From Actinocatenispora thailandica (lineage in GTDB: Bacteria; Actinomycetota; Actinomycetes; Mycobacteriales; Micromonosporaceae), in contig NZ_AP023355.1 in the NCBI RefSeq assembly GCF_016865425.1, positions 3,222,198 through 3,286,197 of the forward strand: a DNA stretch of 64,000 nucleotides. The letters are read 5' to 3'. The position numbers and the translations under genes were made by a program. Under the pieces are notes generated by a model. That model had not been told where the DNA came from and did no database searches. It was given only the letters and a program-made list of their open reading frames with translations. This document shows, in pieces, positions 1-6,239 of the stretch; within the stretch, counting starts at the first letter, position 1; every line of letters begins with the position of its first letter.

Positions 1-1259
1 CGACAGACCGGATCGACGTGGTGCGCCGGGACGGCTCCCGGGCCAGCCTGCCGCTGGACGAGTCGGGCATGATCCCGCAGAAGCTCGGGGTGCCCCGCGA
101 CGAGGTCGCCTACGTCGATGTCACGCTCACCTCCGACCGGCTCGAAGACCTCACCGTGGTCGACACGCCCGGCCTGTCGTCGACCAACTCGTCGATCTCC
201 GACGAGGCCCGCCGGTTCCTGTTCAACGAGGCGCCGATCGACGACGACATCGACGACGACTCCGCCGGCGCGCTGTCCGGCGCCGAGGCGATCGTGTACG
301 TGTTCACCCAGTCGGTGCGCGAGGACGACCTGCAGGCGCTGAAGTCGTTCCAGTCGATGTCCTCGAAGCTGTCGAGCAACCCGATCAACTCGCTCGGCCT
401 GTTCAACAAGGTCGACAAGCTCTCCGGTACCGGCGACCCGTGGCCGGTGGCCGAGCCGCTGGCCAACCAGCAGGGCCAGGTGCTGCGCCGGGTGGTGTCC
501 GACGTGGTACCGGTGATCGGGCTGCTCGCCGAGACCACCGAGGCCGGCCGGCTGACCGCCGCGGACTGCGAGGCGCTGCGCACCATCGCGTCGATGTCCG
601 ACACCGAGCGACAGGTGCTGCTCGCCTCCGTCGACCTGTTCATCGCCCGCGACTGCGCGGTGTCCAAGGCGCAGCGGGAGCGGCTGCTGCGGCTGCTGGA
701 CATCTACGGCGTGTCGTTCGCGGTGGCCCAGTTCGTCGCGAACCCGAGACTTGCCACCGGCGAGCTGGTCAAGCAGCTGTTCCTGGCATCGGGCTTCCCG
801 CGGGCCCGCTCCACCCTGGAGCGGGCGTTTCGCTGGCGCACCGACGCGATCAAGGCCGGCTGGGCGCTGACCAGCCTGGAGAAGATCGCCGGGCACGCCG
901 AGCGCCCCGCCGACCGTGAGCTGCTGCGCGACGCCGTCGAGCGGGTGCTGCAGCAGCCCGAGTACCACCGGCTGCGGATGCTGGACGTCGCGCAGCAGGT
1001 CACCACCGGCTCGGTGGCGCTGCCCGAAGACATGGAGAACGAGCTGACCCGGCTGGCACTGTCCGACGATCCGCACTGGATTCTCGGCATGTCCGGCGCC
1101 ACCGTCGAGCAGCTCGCCAAGGCGGCGCTGGAGGCGGCGACGCGGTGGCGGGCGTTCGCGGTCGCCGGTGCCAGCCCCGCCCAGGCGCGGATCGCCCATG
1201 TCGTCCACCGCGGCTTCTTCCTGCTCTCCCAGCAGGTTCGAAAGAGTCAGCCCGCCTGA
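1..1259 (+). CDS. Dynamin-like GTPase, N-terminus cut by window edge
   Basis: The open frame runs in from the left edge (first full codon at base 3), so the P-loop is outside the window. What remains has the G3 motif DTPG (about 168-179) and the G4 motif NKVD (about 406-417), spaced as in large dynamin/IniA-type GTPases, followed by a long helical, mostly hydrophilic stalk-like region. Family role: nucleotide-driven assembly on membranes for remodelling or repair. It is followed 34 bp later by a GrpE-like membrane protein and then a second dynamin-like GTPase, the usual tandem-pair arrangement of bacterial dynamins (DynA/DynB, IniA/IniC). The specific substrate is unknown. The methionine at 18 is internal, not the true start. 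Confidence 0.8.
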   Translation, partial: TDRIDVVRRDGSRASLPLDESGMIPQKLGVPRDEVAYVDVTLTSDRLEDLTVVDTPGLSSTNSSISDEARRFLFNEAPIDDDIDDDSAGALSGAEAIVYVFTQSVREDDLQALKSFQSMSSKLSSNPINSLGLFNKVDKLSGTGDPWPVAEPLANQQGQVLRRVVSDVVPVIGLLAETTEAGRLTAADCEALRTIASMSDTERQVLLASVDLFIARDCAVSKAQRERLLRLLDIYGVSFAVAQFVANPRLATGELVKQLFLASGFPRARSTLERAFRWRTDAIKAGWALTSLEKIAGHAERPADRELLRDAVERVLQQPEYHRLRMLDVAQQVTTGSVALPEDMENELTRLALSDDPHWILGMSGATVEQLAKAALEAATRWRAFAVAGASPAQARIAHVVHRGFFLLSQQVRKSQPA

Positions 1260-1293
1260 GTCGCGCGATGCGCTTCGGATAAAGGAGCCCCCC

Positions 1294-1959
1294 ATGTCCT
1301 CGAGCAACCTCCGCGTCGTCGCCGCCGGTGTCGCCGCGATAGTCGCCGTACTCACCGGCATCGTCGGCGGCTGGGTCGGCGCCAAGACCGGGACCTGCAC
1401 CCTGCAGGTGCAGACCACCCCGGCCGACGGTGCCGCACCGGGTAGCTCCGACGGCCGCGGCGTGATCAGCCGCAGCGCCGGCTGCGAGTCGAGCTTCTCG
1501 GTGCAGACCGCCGCGGTCGGATTCGTCGGCGCCGGGCTGGCCGGCGGCGTCGCCGTCGCGCTGCTGTTCGCCGCCCGCCGCGACAACGACAAAGAGTCGA
1601 CGGTCACCTCGGCGCCGCCCGCCGCCGGCGCCGACCCCGGCCTCGCCCAGCGCGCCGAGCAGGCCGAGACCGAGCGCGGCAGCCTGATCCAGACCTGCGT
1701 GTACGTGCGGGATCGCGCCACCAGCAAGGCGATCGCCGACGTGCTGGGCCGGTCGCTGCAGGAGGTGGGTGTGACGACCGTGGCGCCGGTCGGCGCCCGG
1801 TTCGACCCGGCGCACCATGAGGCCGGCGGGGCCACCCCCACCACCGATTCGGCCCTCGCCGGCACCATCGCCGCGGTCGAGGTACCCGGCTACGTCGACC
1901 GCGGTGTCGTGCTACGCGCCCCCGTGGTCACCGTGTACAAGGAAGAGGGACGGCAGTGA
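1294..1959 (+). CDS. Membrane-anchored GrpE-like protein
   Basis: 221 aa. The start ATG is preceded by an AAAGGAG ribosome site. An N-terminal membrane segment (about residues 7-30), a short loop with two cysteines and a second hydrophobic segment (about 70-92) precede a soluble tail. The last ~80 residues resemble the C-terminal beta domain of GrpE: GV at the end of a helix, then ARFDPAHHEA, then GTIAAVEVPGY and VVLRAPVVTVY, matching the GrpE pattern FDP-HEA, G-V, GY, R-LR-A-V-V. GrpE is the nucleotide-exchange factor of Hsp70. The long N-terminal coiled coil of classical GrpE is mostly missing. Its stop overlaps the next GTPase start (GTGA), so translation is coupled. An Hsp70-like protein lies 3 kb away. 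The GrpE assignment is from motif reading only. Confidence 0.68.
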   Translation: MSSSNLRVVAAGVAAIVAVLTGIVGGWVGAKTGTCTLQVQTTPADGAAPGSSDGRGVISRSAGCESSFSVQTAAVGFVGAGLAGGVAVALLFAARRDNDKESTVTSAPPAAGADPGLAQRAEQAETERGSLIQTCVYVRDRATSKAIADVLGRSLQEVGVTTVAPVGARFDPAHHEAGGATPTTDSALAGTIAAVEVPGYVDRGVVLRAPVVTVYKEEGRQ

Positions 1960-3833
1960 GCGCACCGGCCAAGACCAACCAGGCCTCGAACACCGCCGCT
2001 CTGGAGAAGCTGCTGCGCGGCGCGGTCGACGCGGGCCTCGCACACCTGCGCCGTATCGACCCGGACGCCGCGTCCGACCTCGACGTGCTCCGCCGTCGCG
2101 AGCAGACCGTGCCGAGCATCGTGGTGGTCGGCGAGACCAAGCGGGGCAAGAGTTCGCTGACCAACGCACTGATCGGGGTACCGAACCTGTCCCCGGTCGA
2201 CGCCGCCGTCGCCACCAGCTCGTACCTGGAGTTCGTGCACGGGCCGCAGCCGGCCGCGCAGGCGTACATCCCGGGGCGGGAGGACCCGATCCCGGTGCGC
2301 ATCGAGGACATCCGCGACTACGGCACCGTGCTCGGCCGGCTGCCCGAGGGGGTCCGGCCGCCACGCCGGCTGGAGATCTTCCACCCGGCGCCGATGCTGC
2401 AGTACGCCTCGCTGCTGGACACCCCCGGTGTCGGTGGGCTCGACTCGCTGCACGCCGAGGTCGCCCTCGACGCGGTGGAGCGGGCCACCGCGCTGCTGTT
2501 CGTGGTCGACGCGTCCGCGCCGTTCTCCCAGCCGGAACTGAACTTCCTGATCGAGGCCAGCAAGCGGGTCAACATGGTGCTGTTCGCGCTGACCAAGGTC
2601 GACGCGTACCCGGGGTGGCGGACCATCCTGGACGACGACCGGTCGCTGCTGCGCGCGCACGCGCCGCGGTTCGCCTCCGCGCCGTTCTTCCCGGTCTCGT
2701 CCCGGCTGGCCGAACTGGCGCTGCAGATGCCCGCCGACGCCGCCGCCGAGATCGTCAAGGAGTCGCGGGTCGCCGAACTGCAGCACGGGCTGATCGGGCT
2801 GGCCGCCAAGGGCACCGCGCTCAAGACGGCCAACACGCTGCGCGCGGTGCGTACCGAGTTCGTCCGGCTGGACCTGAGTGTCGGTGACCGGATGAAGTCG
2901 GCCGACCCGGACCCGGCGCTGCTGGAGCGGCTCAAGGAGGAACGCGGCAAGGTCAACTCGCGCAAGCGGTCGGAGACCAAGCAGTGGTCGCTGGCGCTCA
3001 ACACCGAGACCCAGCGGGCCCGGGTCGACGCCCAGTCCCGGCTGCGCAAGTACATCACCCAGCTGCAGGACGACTTCGGCAAGACCATCGAGAAGGGCTC
3101 CGGCGGCGACATCAAGAAGCTGCCGTACGAGGTGGACCGCGCGCTGTACGCGGTGTCGATCCGACTGTCGGCCGACCTGGAGCACCGGTTCCGGGTCATC
3201 GGGCAGCGCATCCTGGCCAGCGTGTTCAGCCCGCAGGAGCTCAACTACGTGCTGCGCCGGCTCAACGCCAAGCTGCGCACCGCGATGACCGCCAAGCCAC
3301 AGAAGGAGGGCTCCGGCGACCAGTCGCTCGTGGTGATGTCGGCCTTCAGCACCGGCCGCGGGCTGTACTCGCTGGCCAGCGCCGGCGGCGCGACTCTCGG
3401 CGCGTCCGCCCTGGCCGGCGGCATCGTGGTGCCGGTCGTCGGGGTCGGGATCGGCCTCGCCGCCGGCGCGTTCATGATGTGGCGGCGCAAGGTGCAGGCC
3501 AACCGGTCGCAGGCCAAGGTGTGGCTGCGGGAGGTGCTCGGCGAGTCCCGGGCGGCACTGTCCGACGAGATCGCGACCCGATTCACCGACTTGCAGTACG
3601 CCCTGACACTGGCGTTGGACGAGGCGATCGAGCGGCGGCTCAAGCAGCTCGACGGGCAGATCGCCGAGATCGACAAGACGATGGTCGAGGACAAGAACAG
3701 CCGGCAGAAGAAGCGTGCCGACCTGCAGAAGGAGCGCGAGCAGCTGCGGGCCCGGATCAAACAACTCGACGAGGTGCTGATCAAGGCGCGCGGCATCGCG
3801 CCGGCGGCCCCGTCGGACACGCAGGGGGGATAG
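1956..3833 (+). CDS. Dynamin-like GTPase with C-terminal membrane hairpin
   Basis: 625 aa, GTG start inside the stop of the preceding gene. G1 P-loop GETKRGKSS near residue 60, G3 DTPGVGG near 155, G4 TKVD near 210. A helical stalk follows, then a hydrophobic hairpin near residues 465-515 (two Gly/Ala/Val-rich stretches ending in MMWRRK), which fits a membrane paddle, then a charged coiled coil to the C-terminus rich in Lys, Glu and Arg. It is probably the membrane-binding partner of the upstream GTPase, forming a hetero-pair like DynA/DynB or IniA/IniC. The coupled start suggests fixed stoichiometry with the GrpE-like protein. Dynamin-like assignment is firm; cellular role unknown. Confidence 0.85.
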   Translation: MSAPAKTNQASNTAALEKLLRGAVDAGLAHLRRIDPDAASDLDVLRRREQTVPSIVVVGETKRGKSSLTNALIGVPNLSPVDAAVATSSYLEFVHGPQPAAQAYIPGREDPIPVRIEDIRDYGTVLGRLPEGVRPPRRLEIFHPAPMLQYASLLDTPGVGGLDSLHAEVALDAVERATALLFVVDASAPFSQPELNFLIEASKRVNMVLFALTKVDAYPGWRTILDDDRSLLRAHAPRFASAPFFPVSSRLAELALQMPADAAAEIVKESRVAELQHGLIGLAAKGTALKTANTLRAVRTEFVRLDLSVGDRMKSADPDPALLERLKEERGKVNSRKRSETKQWSLALNTETQRARVDAQSRLRKYITQLQDDFGKTIEKGSGGDIKKLPYEVDRALYAVSIRLSADLEHRFRVIGQRILASVFSPQELNYVLRRLNAKLRTAMTAKPQKEGSGDQSLVVMSAFSTGRGLYSLASAGGATLGASALAGGIVVPVVGVGIGLAAGAFMMWRRKVQANRSQAKVWLREVLGESRAALSDEIATRFTDLQYALTLALDEAIERRLKQLDGQIAEIDKTMVEDKNSRQKKRADLQKEREQLRARIKQLDEVLIKARGIAPAAPSDTQGG

Positions 3834-3839
3834 TCGGCC

Positions 3840-4529
3840 ATGGACGAGCACGGCGGGCCGATCTTCGGCGACCACGACAGCGGCGCCGACGACGGGTACG
3901 GGACCGACCACACCGACTCCGGTGACCCGGTCACCGGCGGGTTGGACGGCGACGAGCTGGCTGAGCACGGGCTGGGCGACCACGGGTACGGCGACGAGCA
4001 CCTCGACGTCGACCAGCACGACCAGGATCTCGATCCCGACACCGGGTCGCACGACGGGGCCGGCGACGGTCTCGGGCTGGAGTACGGCGAGCTGTCCGAC
4101 GACGACGGCCGCGGCGAGCCGACGGACGTGCCCGGCACCGACCCGTTCAGCGACGTGGACGAGGACGACCAGCAGGCGCCGGACCTCGACCCCGACCCGG
4201 TGCCCGGTACCGACCCGGACCTCGACCTGGTGGGCGACGATCCGGCCTGGGCGGCCGAGGACGTGTTCCCGCCGCAGCTGGAGATCGGTGAGCCGCCGGA
4301 GCCGGTGGACGGCTTCCCGTGGAGCGATCCCGCCGTGCTCGGCGAGCAGCACGACCTGTCGGTGCAGAGCCCGTCCGATCCGGGGGCGCAGCCGGCCGGC
4401 TCGGCCGCCGACCTGTTCGACTACGACGGTCGGTCGGTGCCCGACGGTGTCGACCCGTGGCAGGCACTGGCAGGCTCGGACGACCCCGCCACCAGCTCGC
4501 TCGCCCGCTTCTGGGCCCCGGGCGGCTGA
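3840..4529 (+). CDS. Highly acidic, disordered protein of the dynamin locus
   Basis: 229 aa, starting 6 bp after the GTPase stop and so almost certainly in the same operon. The composition is extreme: Asp, Gly, Glu and Pro dominate, lysine is essentially absent, and there is no predicted membrane segment. Irregular short repeats of the GDHGYGDEH and DLDPDP type fill the first 140 residues. Only the end (about 200-229, with DPWQAL and LARFWAPGG) looks ordered, like a short docking motif. I do not recognise a family. It could be a charged linker or adaptor for the GTPases or chaperone, or a polyanionic regulator; both are speculation. It is not a J-protein: no HPD motif is visible. Confidence 0.7.
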   Translation: MDEHGGPIFGDHDSGADDGYGTDHTDSGDPVTGGLDGDELAEHGLGDHGYGDEHLDVDQHDQDLDPDTGSHDGAGDGLGLEYGELSDDDGRGEPTDVPGTDPFSDVDEDDQQAPDLDPDPVPGTDPDLDLVGDDPAWAAEDVFPPQLEIGEPPEPVDGFPWSDPAVLGEQHDLSVQSPSDPGAQPAGSAADLFDYDGRSVPDGVDPWQALAGSDDPATSSLARFWAPGG

Positions 4530-4690
4530 CCCGCGGCGCCGGGCCACCGAGTCCGCCCCGCGCCGGGCCCCTGTTTCCGGTGCCGGACCATCCCATCCCT
4601 GGCCCGGCACCGAGCCACCGTGGCTGGCACCAGCGACGATCGCTGCTGCCAGGCACGGTCGGTTGCCGGTGCCGGCATGGTCGTTCAGCC

Positions 4691-4722
4691 CAGGTCGTTC
4701 ACGACCCGTCGCGAACGACCTG
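4691..4722. terminator. Hairpin between convergent genes
   Basis: A perfect 10-bp inverted repeat (CAGGTCGTTC / GAACGACCTG) with a 12-nt loop lies between the stop of the acidic-protein gene and the stop of the Hsp70-like gene that faces it. It is symmetrical and so could end transcription from both sides. No T-tract follows, as is common in GC-rich actinomycetes. The rest of 4530-4790 shows nothing else that I can interpret. Confidence 0.55.
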
Positions 4723-4790
4723 CGGCTGTCACTACTCCGCCTGGGCGCGGTCGACTGGCGTGGACCGCGCCGGTGTGCCGACCCGGCGGG

Positions 4791-6239
4791 TCAGCGAGCC
4801 ACCGCGTAGACCAGCAGGCCCACGAACGCCAGCACCAGCACGACCGCCACCACCAGGGTGCCGACCACTGCCGGCTCCTGGTACCAGTTGCGCCCCGAGC
4901 CGTCCTCGGCGGCTGCGGTGGCGGCGGGCGGCGCCGCGGCCATCGGCCGCTGCGGCGCCGCCATCGGGGCGGCGGTGGGCCGCATCGGCGCCTGCTGCAC
5001 CGGCGGGCGCGGGCCGGCCTGCTGTACCGGCGGGCGCGGCGCCGGGGTCGGCGCCGGACGCGGCGGGCTCGGGATCACCGGCCGGGCCGGGGGCCGGTTG
5101 CCGGCCGGGGCCGGCCGGACCGGCGGCCGGTGCTGCGGCTGTACCGGCCGCGGCGGGATCGCCGGACGCTGGTTGGGCGGCCCGCCCACCGCGAGCGAAC
5201 CCTCCACCACGACGGTCTCCGGCTGCTCCAGCGCGGTCGGCGCCACCCCGAGGGTGGTGTGCACGAGGTGCCCGGCCAGCGGGATCCGGCTGGACCCGCC
5301 GACCAGGAAGATGCCGACCAGGTCGCGGGGCGTCAGCCGGGCCTCGGAGATGGTGCGCTGCAGGCACTCCACCGTCCGCTCCAGGTGCGGGCGGATCAGC
5401 GACTCCAGCTCCTCGCGGGTGACGTGCGCGTCCACCTCCAGCGCCGGCAGGTGGATGTCCGAGCTGGAGGTACGCGACAGCATCTCCTTCGCGCCGCGCA
5501 CGTCCTCGTACAGCATGCGGCGGTAGCGGCGGTCACCGGACTCACGGGGGTTGATCAACCGCGCCCACAGCTCCGGGTGCGACTGCGAGTACGTCTTGCC
5601 GAGGTGCTCGATGATGGCGTGGTCGAAGTCGAGACCGCCGACGTCGGGCAGGCCTTCCTCGGCGAGCACCTCGAAACCCGACTGGGTGCGGCGCACCACG
5701 GTGGCGTCGAAGGTTCCGCCACCCAGGTCGTAGATGGCCAGCGATCGGCCCACCGGCACCGCGGTGCCCAGCACGGCGGTGAAGTAGGACGCGGCGCCGA
5801 CCGGCTCGGCGATCAGCTGCGGCCGGGGCAGCCCGGCCAGCCGGGCACCCTCCACCAGCAGGCTGCGCCGCCGCTCACCCCACCGGGCCGGGTGGGTCAT
5901 GCGCAACTGCTCGGGCATCCCACCGATCTGCCGGCGGGCCTCGGTGATCACCTGCTCCAGCACGTACGCGATCACCCGCGGCACCGGGATCTCCTGGTCG
6001 CCCAGGAACACGGTGCCGTCGTCGATGCGGCGCTTCGGGTTCGGTTCGAACCGGGTGGGGTCGACCCGGGCGTTACGCTCCGCGTCCCGCCCCACCAGCA
6101 TCCGGCCATCGGGGGCCAGATAGACCGAGGAAGGCAGCAGCGGTGACCCGTCGAACAACAGTGGCCGAACCCGCCCATCGGGCATTCGGAGCATGGCCAC
6201 TGTGTTCGACGTGCCGAAGTCGATTCCGAGCACGCGCAT
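4791..6239 (-). CDS. Hsp70-like ATPase with proline-rich linker and C-terminal membrane anchor
   Basis: 482 aa; ATG with an AGGAGG site just upstream. The N-terminal ~345 residues form an ASKHA ATPase domain: phosphate-1 motif GIDFGTSNT at residue 4, phosphate-2 motif DLGGGTFD near 170, adenosine motif VGGSSRIP near 308. In place of the Hsp70 substrate-binding domain there is a ~110-residue Pro/Ala/Arg-rich linker with PPVQQA-type repeats, then one hydrophobic segment (about 455-480) at the extreme C-terminus, so the ATPase should hang in the cytoplasm from the membrane. It lacks the beta-sandwich and lid of DnaK. It converges on the GrpE-like/dynamin operon, suggesting a dedicated membrane chaperone system. 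The ATPase fold is certain; client and partners are inference. Confidence 0.85.
   Translation of the reverse strand: MRVLGIDFGTSNTVAMLRMPDGRVRPLLFDGSPLLPSSVYLAPDGRMLVGRDAERNARVDPTRFEPNPKRRIDDGTVFLGDQEIPVPRVIAYVLEQVITEARRQIGGMPEQLRMTHPARWGERRRSLLVEGARLAGLPRPQLIAEPVGAASYFTAVLGTAVPVGRSLAIYDLGGGTFDATVVRRTQSGFEVLAEEGLPDVGGLDFDHAIIEHLGKTYSQSHPELWARLINPRESGDRRYRRMLYEDVRGAKEMLSRTSSSDIHLPALEVDAHVTREELESLIRPHLERTVECLQRTISEARLTPRDLVGIFLVGGSSRIPLAGHLVHTTLGVAPTALEQPETVVVEGSLAVGGPPNQRPAIPPRPVQPQHRPPVRPAPAGNRPPARPVIPSPPRPAPTPAPRPPVQQAGPRPPVQQAPMRPTAAPMAAPQRPMAAAPPAATAAAEDGSGRNWYQEPAVVGTLVVAVVLVLAFVGLLVYAVAR

Follow-up and report, generated by a model that had tools for sequence, protein, structure and literature searches.

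The first 6,239 nucleotides of a 64,000-nucleotide stretch of Actinocatenispora thailandica DNA (contig NZ_AP023355.1, positions 3,222,198 to 3,286,197; the whole stretch is referred to here as the window) encode two dynamin-like GTPases (dyn1 and dyn2), a membrane protein whose C-terminal domain is of the GrpE type (grpL), and an Hsp70 ATPase domain (hsp70) that has no substrate-binding domain (SBD) and is anchored by a C-terminal transmembrane (TM) segment. These components are encoded together at this locus and recur together in other genomes, and the association of their genes is very probably both real and old. Gene neighborhoods, the domain anatomy of the products, and the fate of hsp70 in species that have lost grpL suggest a four-protein membrane module in which a GrpL-driven Hsp70 ATPase switch acts on the dynamin pair, a reading that, taken as a whole, has about an even chance of being right. 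Considered separately, GrpL is likely to serve the local Hsp70 as its exchange factor, and control of the dynamins is a plausible output of the module. The genes of the locus are as follows:

Positions 1..1259, plus strand: dyn1, the first dynamin-like GTPase, whose 3′ part lies in the window (PF00350, 53.7 bits for the full gene).
Positions 1294..1959, plus strand: grpL, a two-TM protein with a GrpE-type C-terminal domain (PF01025, 31.8 bits).
Positions 1956..3833, plus strand: dyn2, the second dynamin-like GTPase, IniA/LeoA-like (PF00350, 51.7 bits).
Positions 3840..4529, plus strand: orf4, an acidic protein directly 3′ of dyn2 (no Pfam match at E<=1).
Positions 4791..6239, minus strand: hsp70, an Hsp70 ATPase domain followed by a Pro-rich linker and a C-terminal TM segment (PF00012, 119.6 bits).

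The operon runs dyn1, grpL, dyn2, and orf4, with hsp70 (6239-4791) convergent to it, and the stop codon of grpL (1957-1959) shares a 4-base overlap, GTGA, with the GTG start of dyn2 (1956). The ATG of dyn1 is located ~247 bases 5′ of window base 1 (L004:11754), and its P-loop likewise lies outside the window; the part inside the window alone reaches 13 bits for Dynamin_N (PF00350), below the cut-off, and it is the full-length gene that forms an adjacent Dynamin_N pair with dyn2. An earlier note, made from the letters of the window alone, had described a two-segment membrane protein with a GrpE-type C terminus, coupled to one dynamin gene and preceded by another, together with a convergent Hsp70 ATPase domain on a C-terminal membrane anchor, and every part of this description was borne out by profile searches and hydropathy. 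Features beyond that description are orf4, the absence of an SBD, and a regulator gene outside the window. Two of the checks that it had proposed, a GrpE profile search and a survey of gene neighborhoods, gave a significant match above the cut-off and showed the genes together across many genomes.

Hydropathy places the hydrophobic segments of GrpL at residues 6-24 and 70-88, and the ~45-residue loop between them carries two cysteines (35 and 64); alignment A3, of 36 proteins, has such a pair in 17, namely, those with the longer loops. Residues 146-216 match PF01025 at E 1.4e-7 (cut-off, 25.8 bits) over profile positions 96-165 of 165, and the motifs FDPAHHEA, GTIAAVEVPGY, and VLRAPVVTV, quoted in the earlier note, are present in the translation. 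A profile of 32 GrpL domains, compared with solved structures, matched seven distinct GrpE sequences (E 3.2e-9 to 5.4e-6), with the next match at E 0.33, and hhalign of the GrpL family against six canonical actinobacterial GrpEs (98.1%, E 1.3e-13) aligned 77 columns that appear to represent the last helix and the beta-wing. A chance motif as the cause of the GrpE match is ruled out by these three results. Since the best score of GrpL with the NCBIfam GrpE models is 26.2 bits, far under equivalog cut-offs of at least 137 (19 models listed), its sequence identifies GrpL as a GrpE-domain protein and not as an ordinary GrpE. The long N-terminal coiled coil of GrpE is absent from GrpL, in which profile positions 1-95 are unmatched and two TM segments are found instead. 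The beta-wing motifs are strongly conserved among relatives, and the equivalent of V192 of E. coli GrpE, which we take, together with R183, to be a contact residue, is invariant in alignment A1 (helix names are likewise those we presume to apply in these sequences). The C-terminal domain of GrpL is presumably cytosolic. Many order-level relatives are without TM segments, as judged by hydropathy with start codons chosen by hand.

In the hsp70 product, the PF00012 match covers residues 83-347 only, and the best alignment to a solved structure (DnaK, 2v7y) covers residues 1-352 only. An SBD is absent, given that the Pfam match stops at position 368 of the 599-position model and that the rest consists of the Pro-rich linker and the TM segment, located by hydropathy at 461-479 (numbering of the translation without the first Met). 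Relatives have a similar architecture, to which some other families add ~200 residues after the TM segment. Residues K251 and S255 are invariant in the 28 sequences examined from loci or genomes with grpL (grpL+) and correspond by alignment to K316 and S320 of mortalin, which bind nucleotide according to PMC11685456. In the same paper, the mortalin ATPase domain is contacted by the beta-wing and short helices of GrpEL1, and the linker and SBD by its long stalk; in E. coli, the N-terminal tails of GrpE bind the SBD (PMC12915176). The locus resembles both DnaK-GrpE and mortalin-GrpEL1 in having a GrpE beta-wing with its preceding helix beside an Hsp70 ATPase domain, but it differs from them in having no SBD and no long GrpL coiled coil, with TM segments in both proteins in the clade of the window. 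Anatomically, the two truncations appear complementary: the Hsp70 is without the SBD, and GrpL is without the stalk and tail that act on an SBD.

Because this Hsp70 has no SBD, nothing supports calling it a chaperone that folds proteins, and the part of a nucleotide-driven switch suits it better. The earlier note had proposed a chaperone acting on a dynamin coat; the folding or uncoating part of that proposal does not stand as written, and assembly or disassembly of a coat is at most suggested by gene order. Alternatively, GrpL might bring the housekeeping DnaK and its cytosolic partners, DnaJ and GrpE, to the membrane and thereby expose the dynamins to ordinary chaperone activity. DnaK, unlike the local Hsp70, has an SBD, and a full-length housekeeping-type GrpE with an adjoining DnaJ-domain gene is encoded in the genome. 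However, GrpL is without the stalk and tail that contact the linker and SBD, and the linkage and rate shift of hsp70 described below point to the local Hsp70, leaving DnaK recruitment improbable. Apart from grpL, the genome has two more GrpE-domain genes, the housekeeping one and one adjoining another Hsp70. A second accessory pair of this genome (L005:6749-9007) consists of a DnaK-like protein (PF00012, 281 bits) and a GrpE-domain protein (36.9 bits), neither of which has a TM segment by hydropathy. Hsp70 ATPase domains also form a multi-copy family (e.g., L188-L195) whose members differ in their C-terminal halves and in several cases have TM segments; one related genome has as many as 17 matches. 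This family looks like one of ATPase-domain receptors or switches.

Co-occurrence was surveyed in 150 genomes of the order, in which grpL (E<1e-13, within a gap from 3.3e-14 to 9.9e-9) was found in 43. The hsp70 family (E<1e-50) was present in 41 of these 43, versus 17 of the 107 genomes without grpL, and 41 of the 43 genomes having dyn2 at E<1e-80 contained grpL (both hand counts); part of the first-look candidates was scored, which makes absences less sure than presences. Among 52 order-level stretches that were fetched, 10 that came from weak grpL matches contained neither dynamin and were excluded before counting; L071 among them has no match, and the other nine are canonical GrpE/DnaK/DnaJ loci. 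This left 42 loci. Both dynamins are present at 41 of them (the exception is L033), and hsp70 (>60 bits) lies within the fetched stretch at 20, against a random expectation, calculated for five genomes, of 0.013-0.024 per locus. A second set, hereafter the named loci, comprises the best 80 of 353 confirmed dyn1 loci and was chosen by dyn1. In this set, dyn2 accompanies dyn1 in all 80 cases and grpL is present at 42, with hsp70 within the stretch at 14 of the 42 grpL+ and 6 of the 38 grpL-lacking (grpL-) loci. At the class level, the GrpL profile matched (E<=1e-12) in 12 of 296 genomes, two of which were the window genome and a member of the order. The other ten loci were fetched: two are canonical dnaK-grpE loci, all of the remaining eight have both dynamins, and the hsp70 family occurs at five of these eight, truncated by the stretch edge in one case.

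In Phytohabitans flavus, Actinoplanes regularis, and a Spirilliplanes species (L208, L209, and L210), whose main locus has no grpL, a second, divergent cluster again contains all four parts (dynamins, GrpL, and Hsp70). The GrpL match of this cluster is divergent and, in two of these species, includes a stop codon; the Hsp70 reading frame spans ~800-900 residues, with no TM segment detected in two of the three. Inherited synteny, with neighbors that have no joint function, would account for the fact that gene order is largely inherited within Micromonosporaceae. Across families, however, the arrangement differs, with hsp70 convergent downstream, colinear upstream, or beside the grpL-dyn1-dyn2 order, and hsp70 linkage is ~20 times that expected by chance; synteny alone is already disfavored and very improbable.

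A link between GrpL and Hsp70 is further supported by species in which grpL is missing. Mapped on a tree of 71 loci built from dyn1 and dyn2, the presence of grpL requires one change, a single loss inside Micromonosporaceae. The possibility that grpL had merely been missed in grpL- species was rejected after a genome-wide profile search of 30 genomes, in which the best match in 22 of 25 grpL- genomes scored 31-41 bits, the range of canonical GrpE; the remaining three have a divergent GrpL (57-80 bits) in the second cluster. A plasmid cassette was likewise rejected, as no plasmid match to grpL was found and the tree has one loss. In the ATPase-domain tree, the 23 grpL+ hsp70 rows (Micromonosporaceae and Glycomycetaceae) fall on one side of a branch with an SH-aLRT of 90, including 11 in which hsp70 lies outside the fetched stretch; where positions were compared, the distant hsp70 is ~17 kb from the locus in Longispora and at least 60 kb away or on another contig elsewhere. 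In 15 of 21 grpL- genomes, the best hsp70 match falls among paralogs, suggesting that the ortholog appears to have been lost in these 15, all of which belong to the Actinoplanes group except Micromonospora sp. HM5-17.

Where the ortholog is retained, its rate differs. The ratio of hsp70 to dynamin distance, taken relative to three outgroup genomes and with Asanoa and the paralog cases left out, is 0.55-0.78 in 22 grpL+ species versus 0.88-1.03 in 7 grpL- species. A neighboring gene, transporter-like by eye, has a median ratio of 1.02 (n=9) in grpL+ versus 1.08 (n=6) in grpL- species, and for the LuxR-type regulator, the medians are 1.48 (n=19) and 1.48 (n=5). The Hsp70 ortholog evolves faster in the grpL- clade, and the dynamins and two flanking genes have no such shift; in all six trials with single reference genomes, the grpL+ and grpL- medians rank in the same way. 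The pairing of a tethered Hsp70 with its own exchange factor, as put forward in the earlier note, is strengthened to the extent of a GrpL-Hsp70 link, namely, the faster evolution and apparent loss of Hsp70 after the loss of GrpL. Among Hsp70 sites conserved in grpL+ sequences, changes in grpL- sequences amount to 1.1 per conserved site in lobe IIB versus 0.52-0.69 elsewhere, a weak result from a post hoc comparison of seven grpL- sequences of one ancestry with approximate lobe borders (lobes being named as we presume them to lie in these sequences). One such site, R241, is changed in all seven grpL- sequences and is not GrpL-specific, because it is conserved in most paralogs.

These data also bear on the alternative that GrpL is a structural adaptor, in which the GrpE fold was reused for tethering or organizing the dynamins with no exchange activity, the Hsp70-like protein being a separate neighbor. 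In favor of an adaptor, grpL is tied far more tightly to the dynamins, both found at 41 of 42 loci, than to hsp70, which lies nearby at 20; GrpL has no TM segments by hydropathy in several families, and hsp70 is still present at 6 of the 38 grpL- named loci. The adaptor reading is less easily reconciled with an hsp70 that accelerates, and partly seems to be lost, where grpL is missing while the dynamin rate is unchanged, with divergent clusters that again hold all parts, or with the strong conservation of the beta-wing motifs. On balance, an adaptor without exchange activity is unlikely.

One clade adds a further component of Hsp70 cycles. At 23 of the 80 named loci (Glycomycetaceae, Phytomonospora, Actinorhabdospora, and one related metagenome-assembled genome), a membrane J-domain protein is encoded downstream of dyn2, with examples as follows:

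L101:15088-16323: membrane J-domain protein.
L157:16234-17502: membrane J-domain protein.

The DnaJ domain of these proteins is N-terminal and scores 57-64 bits in the three that were checked with Pfam, and the five proteins checked for hydrophobic segments have at least three. None of the 23 loci has hsp70 within the fetched stretch, and the J-domain protein could be a coincidental neighbor. An ortholog is absent from the window genome, in which the sole match (39.5 bits) adjoins the housekeeping grpE.

In the mechanism proposed for the locus, GrpL would form a membrane hairpin that displays its short helix and beta-wing in the cytosol, where it would dock on the IB and IIB lobes of the anchored Hsp70 ATPase domain and release ADP, as GrpE does on DnaK. 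Next to the membrane, the Hsp70 domain would then pass from its ATP state to its ADP state and back, serving as a switch rather than helping proteins to fold, and this switch would time the assembly of the dynamin pair on the membrane or its departure from it. ATP hydrolysis might be stimulated by the J-domain protein of the locus in one clade and elsewhere by a general or unlinked J-domain protein, or by none. A bolder form, an Hsp70 engine without chaperoning, in which a membrane-bound ATPase cycle, served by a dedicated exchange factor and in one clade also by a J-domain protein, drives the dynamins after substrate binding has been removed on both sides, is offered as a tentative proposal with somewhat less than an even chance. 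An Hsp70 ATPase linked genetically to the dynamins, together with an exchange factor dedicated to it, is a concrete candidate for timing the assembly and release of bacterial dynamins; if this is true, an Hsp70-GrpE pair has been cut to its ATPase/exchange half, separating nucleotide cycling from substrate handling.

Several observations weigh against a GrpL-driven switch acting on the dynamins. In terms of gene content, the fetched stretch is without hsp70 at 22 of the 42 order-level grpL loci, the dynamin pair is found without GrpL at 38 of the 80 named loci, and no J-domain gene was found at the window locus. The six grpL- loci with a linked hsp70 have K69, K251, and S255 intact, and hsp70 can therefore persist without GrpL. 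In terms of contacts, the equivalent of R183 of E. coli GrpE, a presumed contact residue, is V in the GrpL of the window (R in many relatives), and in the alignment, the IIB hairpin of the window Hsp70 is shorter than that of DnaK; a short IIB hairpin generally marks Hsp70s that do not use GrpE. At least nine hsp70-family matches, including this one, are found in the genome at E<1e-50, a lower bound from the scoring of 13 of 28 candidates, such that other paralogs are possible partners. In terms of evolutionary rates, grpL was lost in one event, and the rate test therefore has one primary replicate, so that its p-values make the evidence look stronger than it is; the ranges of the ratio overlap with L031 or L082 as the single reference and touch with L162. 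The loss of the hsp70 ortholog was read from a quick tree with long-branch warnings, in which three Asanoa rows, on long branches and not counted as loss, are also placed among paralogs. Binding, exchange activity, and action on the dynamins are all steps that we infer.

The dynamins themselves are related to known paired systems. The P-loop and DTPG motifs of dyn1 are invariant in alignment A2 (14 relatives), and its best segment is 98% identical to dyn1 of Actinocatenispora comari, which places the host with Actinocatenispora-like Micromonosporaceae; hydropathy reveals one hydrophobic segment in dyn2 (residues 490-508) and none in dyn1. The mycobacterial IniA/IniC pair (iniBAC) is likewise a pair of actinobacterial dynamin-like genes, and dyn2 is related to IniA (structure 6j72, E 6.6e-21). 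The described order there is, in contrast, iniB-iniA-iniC, and the words DnaK and chaperone are absent from the main text of PMC6715688. In that paper, the scission activity of IniA is called relatively low, and help by a partner is suggested. LeoABC and Campylobacter DLP1/2 also have two dynamins in one operon, and heterotypic dynamin partners are thought necessary; in the Campylobacter paper, GrpE is absent from the main text and Hsp70 occurs in the reference list only (PMC6104087). Among PADLOC models, dyn2 matches LeoA (E 5.2e-22), LeoBC (E 7.2e-20), and, weakly, LeoB, and dyn1 matches LeoA only, also weakly.

Such matches raise the possibility of an envelope-stress or anti-phage membrane system of the LeoABC/IniBAC type, with Hsp70 and GrpL as accessory sensors, in keeping with the affinity of dyn2 for LeoA, LeoBC, and IniA and with the divergent ATPase/LuxR regulator that adjoins dyn1. 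However, no PADLOC model was matched by grpL, orf4, or hsp70 at E<=0.001, the match of dyn1 to LeoA and that of the regulator to CARF models (at its helix-turn-helix end) are weak, and the presence of grpL is in keeping with vertical inheritance and one loss, with no match to it among plasmids; a defense role of this type is thus considered improbable.

The closest precedent for the Hsp70-dynamin association is the cyanobacterial "chaperone clade" of bacterial dynamin-like proteins, in which a DnaK-domain gene adjoins the dynamin gene on its downstream side (PMC5827413, section 7). That clade is set apart from the tandem-dynamin clades, and the same section mentions no GrpE-like partner. The window Hsp70, for its part, has a C-terminal TM segment and no SBD. 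The statement of the earlier note that no system of this composition had been described therefore requires amendment as regards a dynamin gene next to a DnaK-domain gene and holds for the GrpE-like partner, within that section of the paper. Beyond this precedent, no Hsp70/GrpE-dynamin locus was found described in the titles and abstract beginnings of open-licence PubMed Central articles, among the matches listed.

Other genes flank the module. Immediately upstream of dyn1, and divergent from it, lies the regulator mentioned above:

L004:8996-11542, minus strand, outside the window: regulator of 848 residues with a LuxR-type GerE domain (61.1 bits).

Its AAA_16 match, 20.7 bits, is below the cut-off. 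In a gene comparison of 123 loci, which holds five genomes twice (L026/L108, L044/L157, L047/L148, L052/L152, and L058/L137), a member of the single-linkage family of this regulator is divergent within ~1.5 kb of dyn1 at 74. The acidic orf4 has tblastn matches of >35 bits at 59 and of >45 bits at 52 of the 80 named loci, the weak ones being possibly inflated by acidic composition. In Fodinicola feengrottensis (L148 = L047), dyn1, grpL, dyn2, and hsp70 are each seemingly broken by frame changes or a stop, reflecting either assembly errors or decay. Finally, a family with one checked DUF6802 member (L051:12097-13209) is encoded, usually ~4-7 kb downstream of dyn1, at 21 order-level loci.

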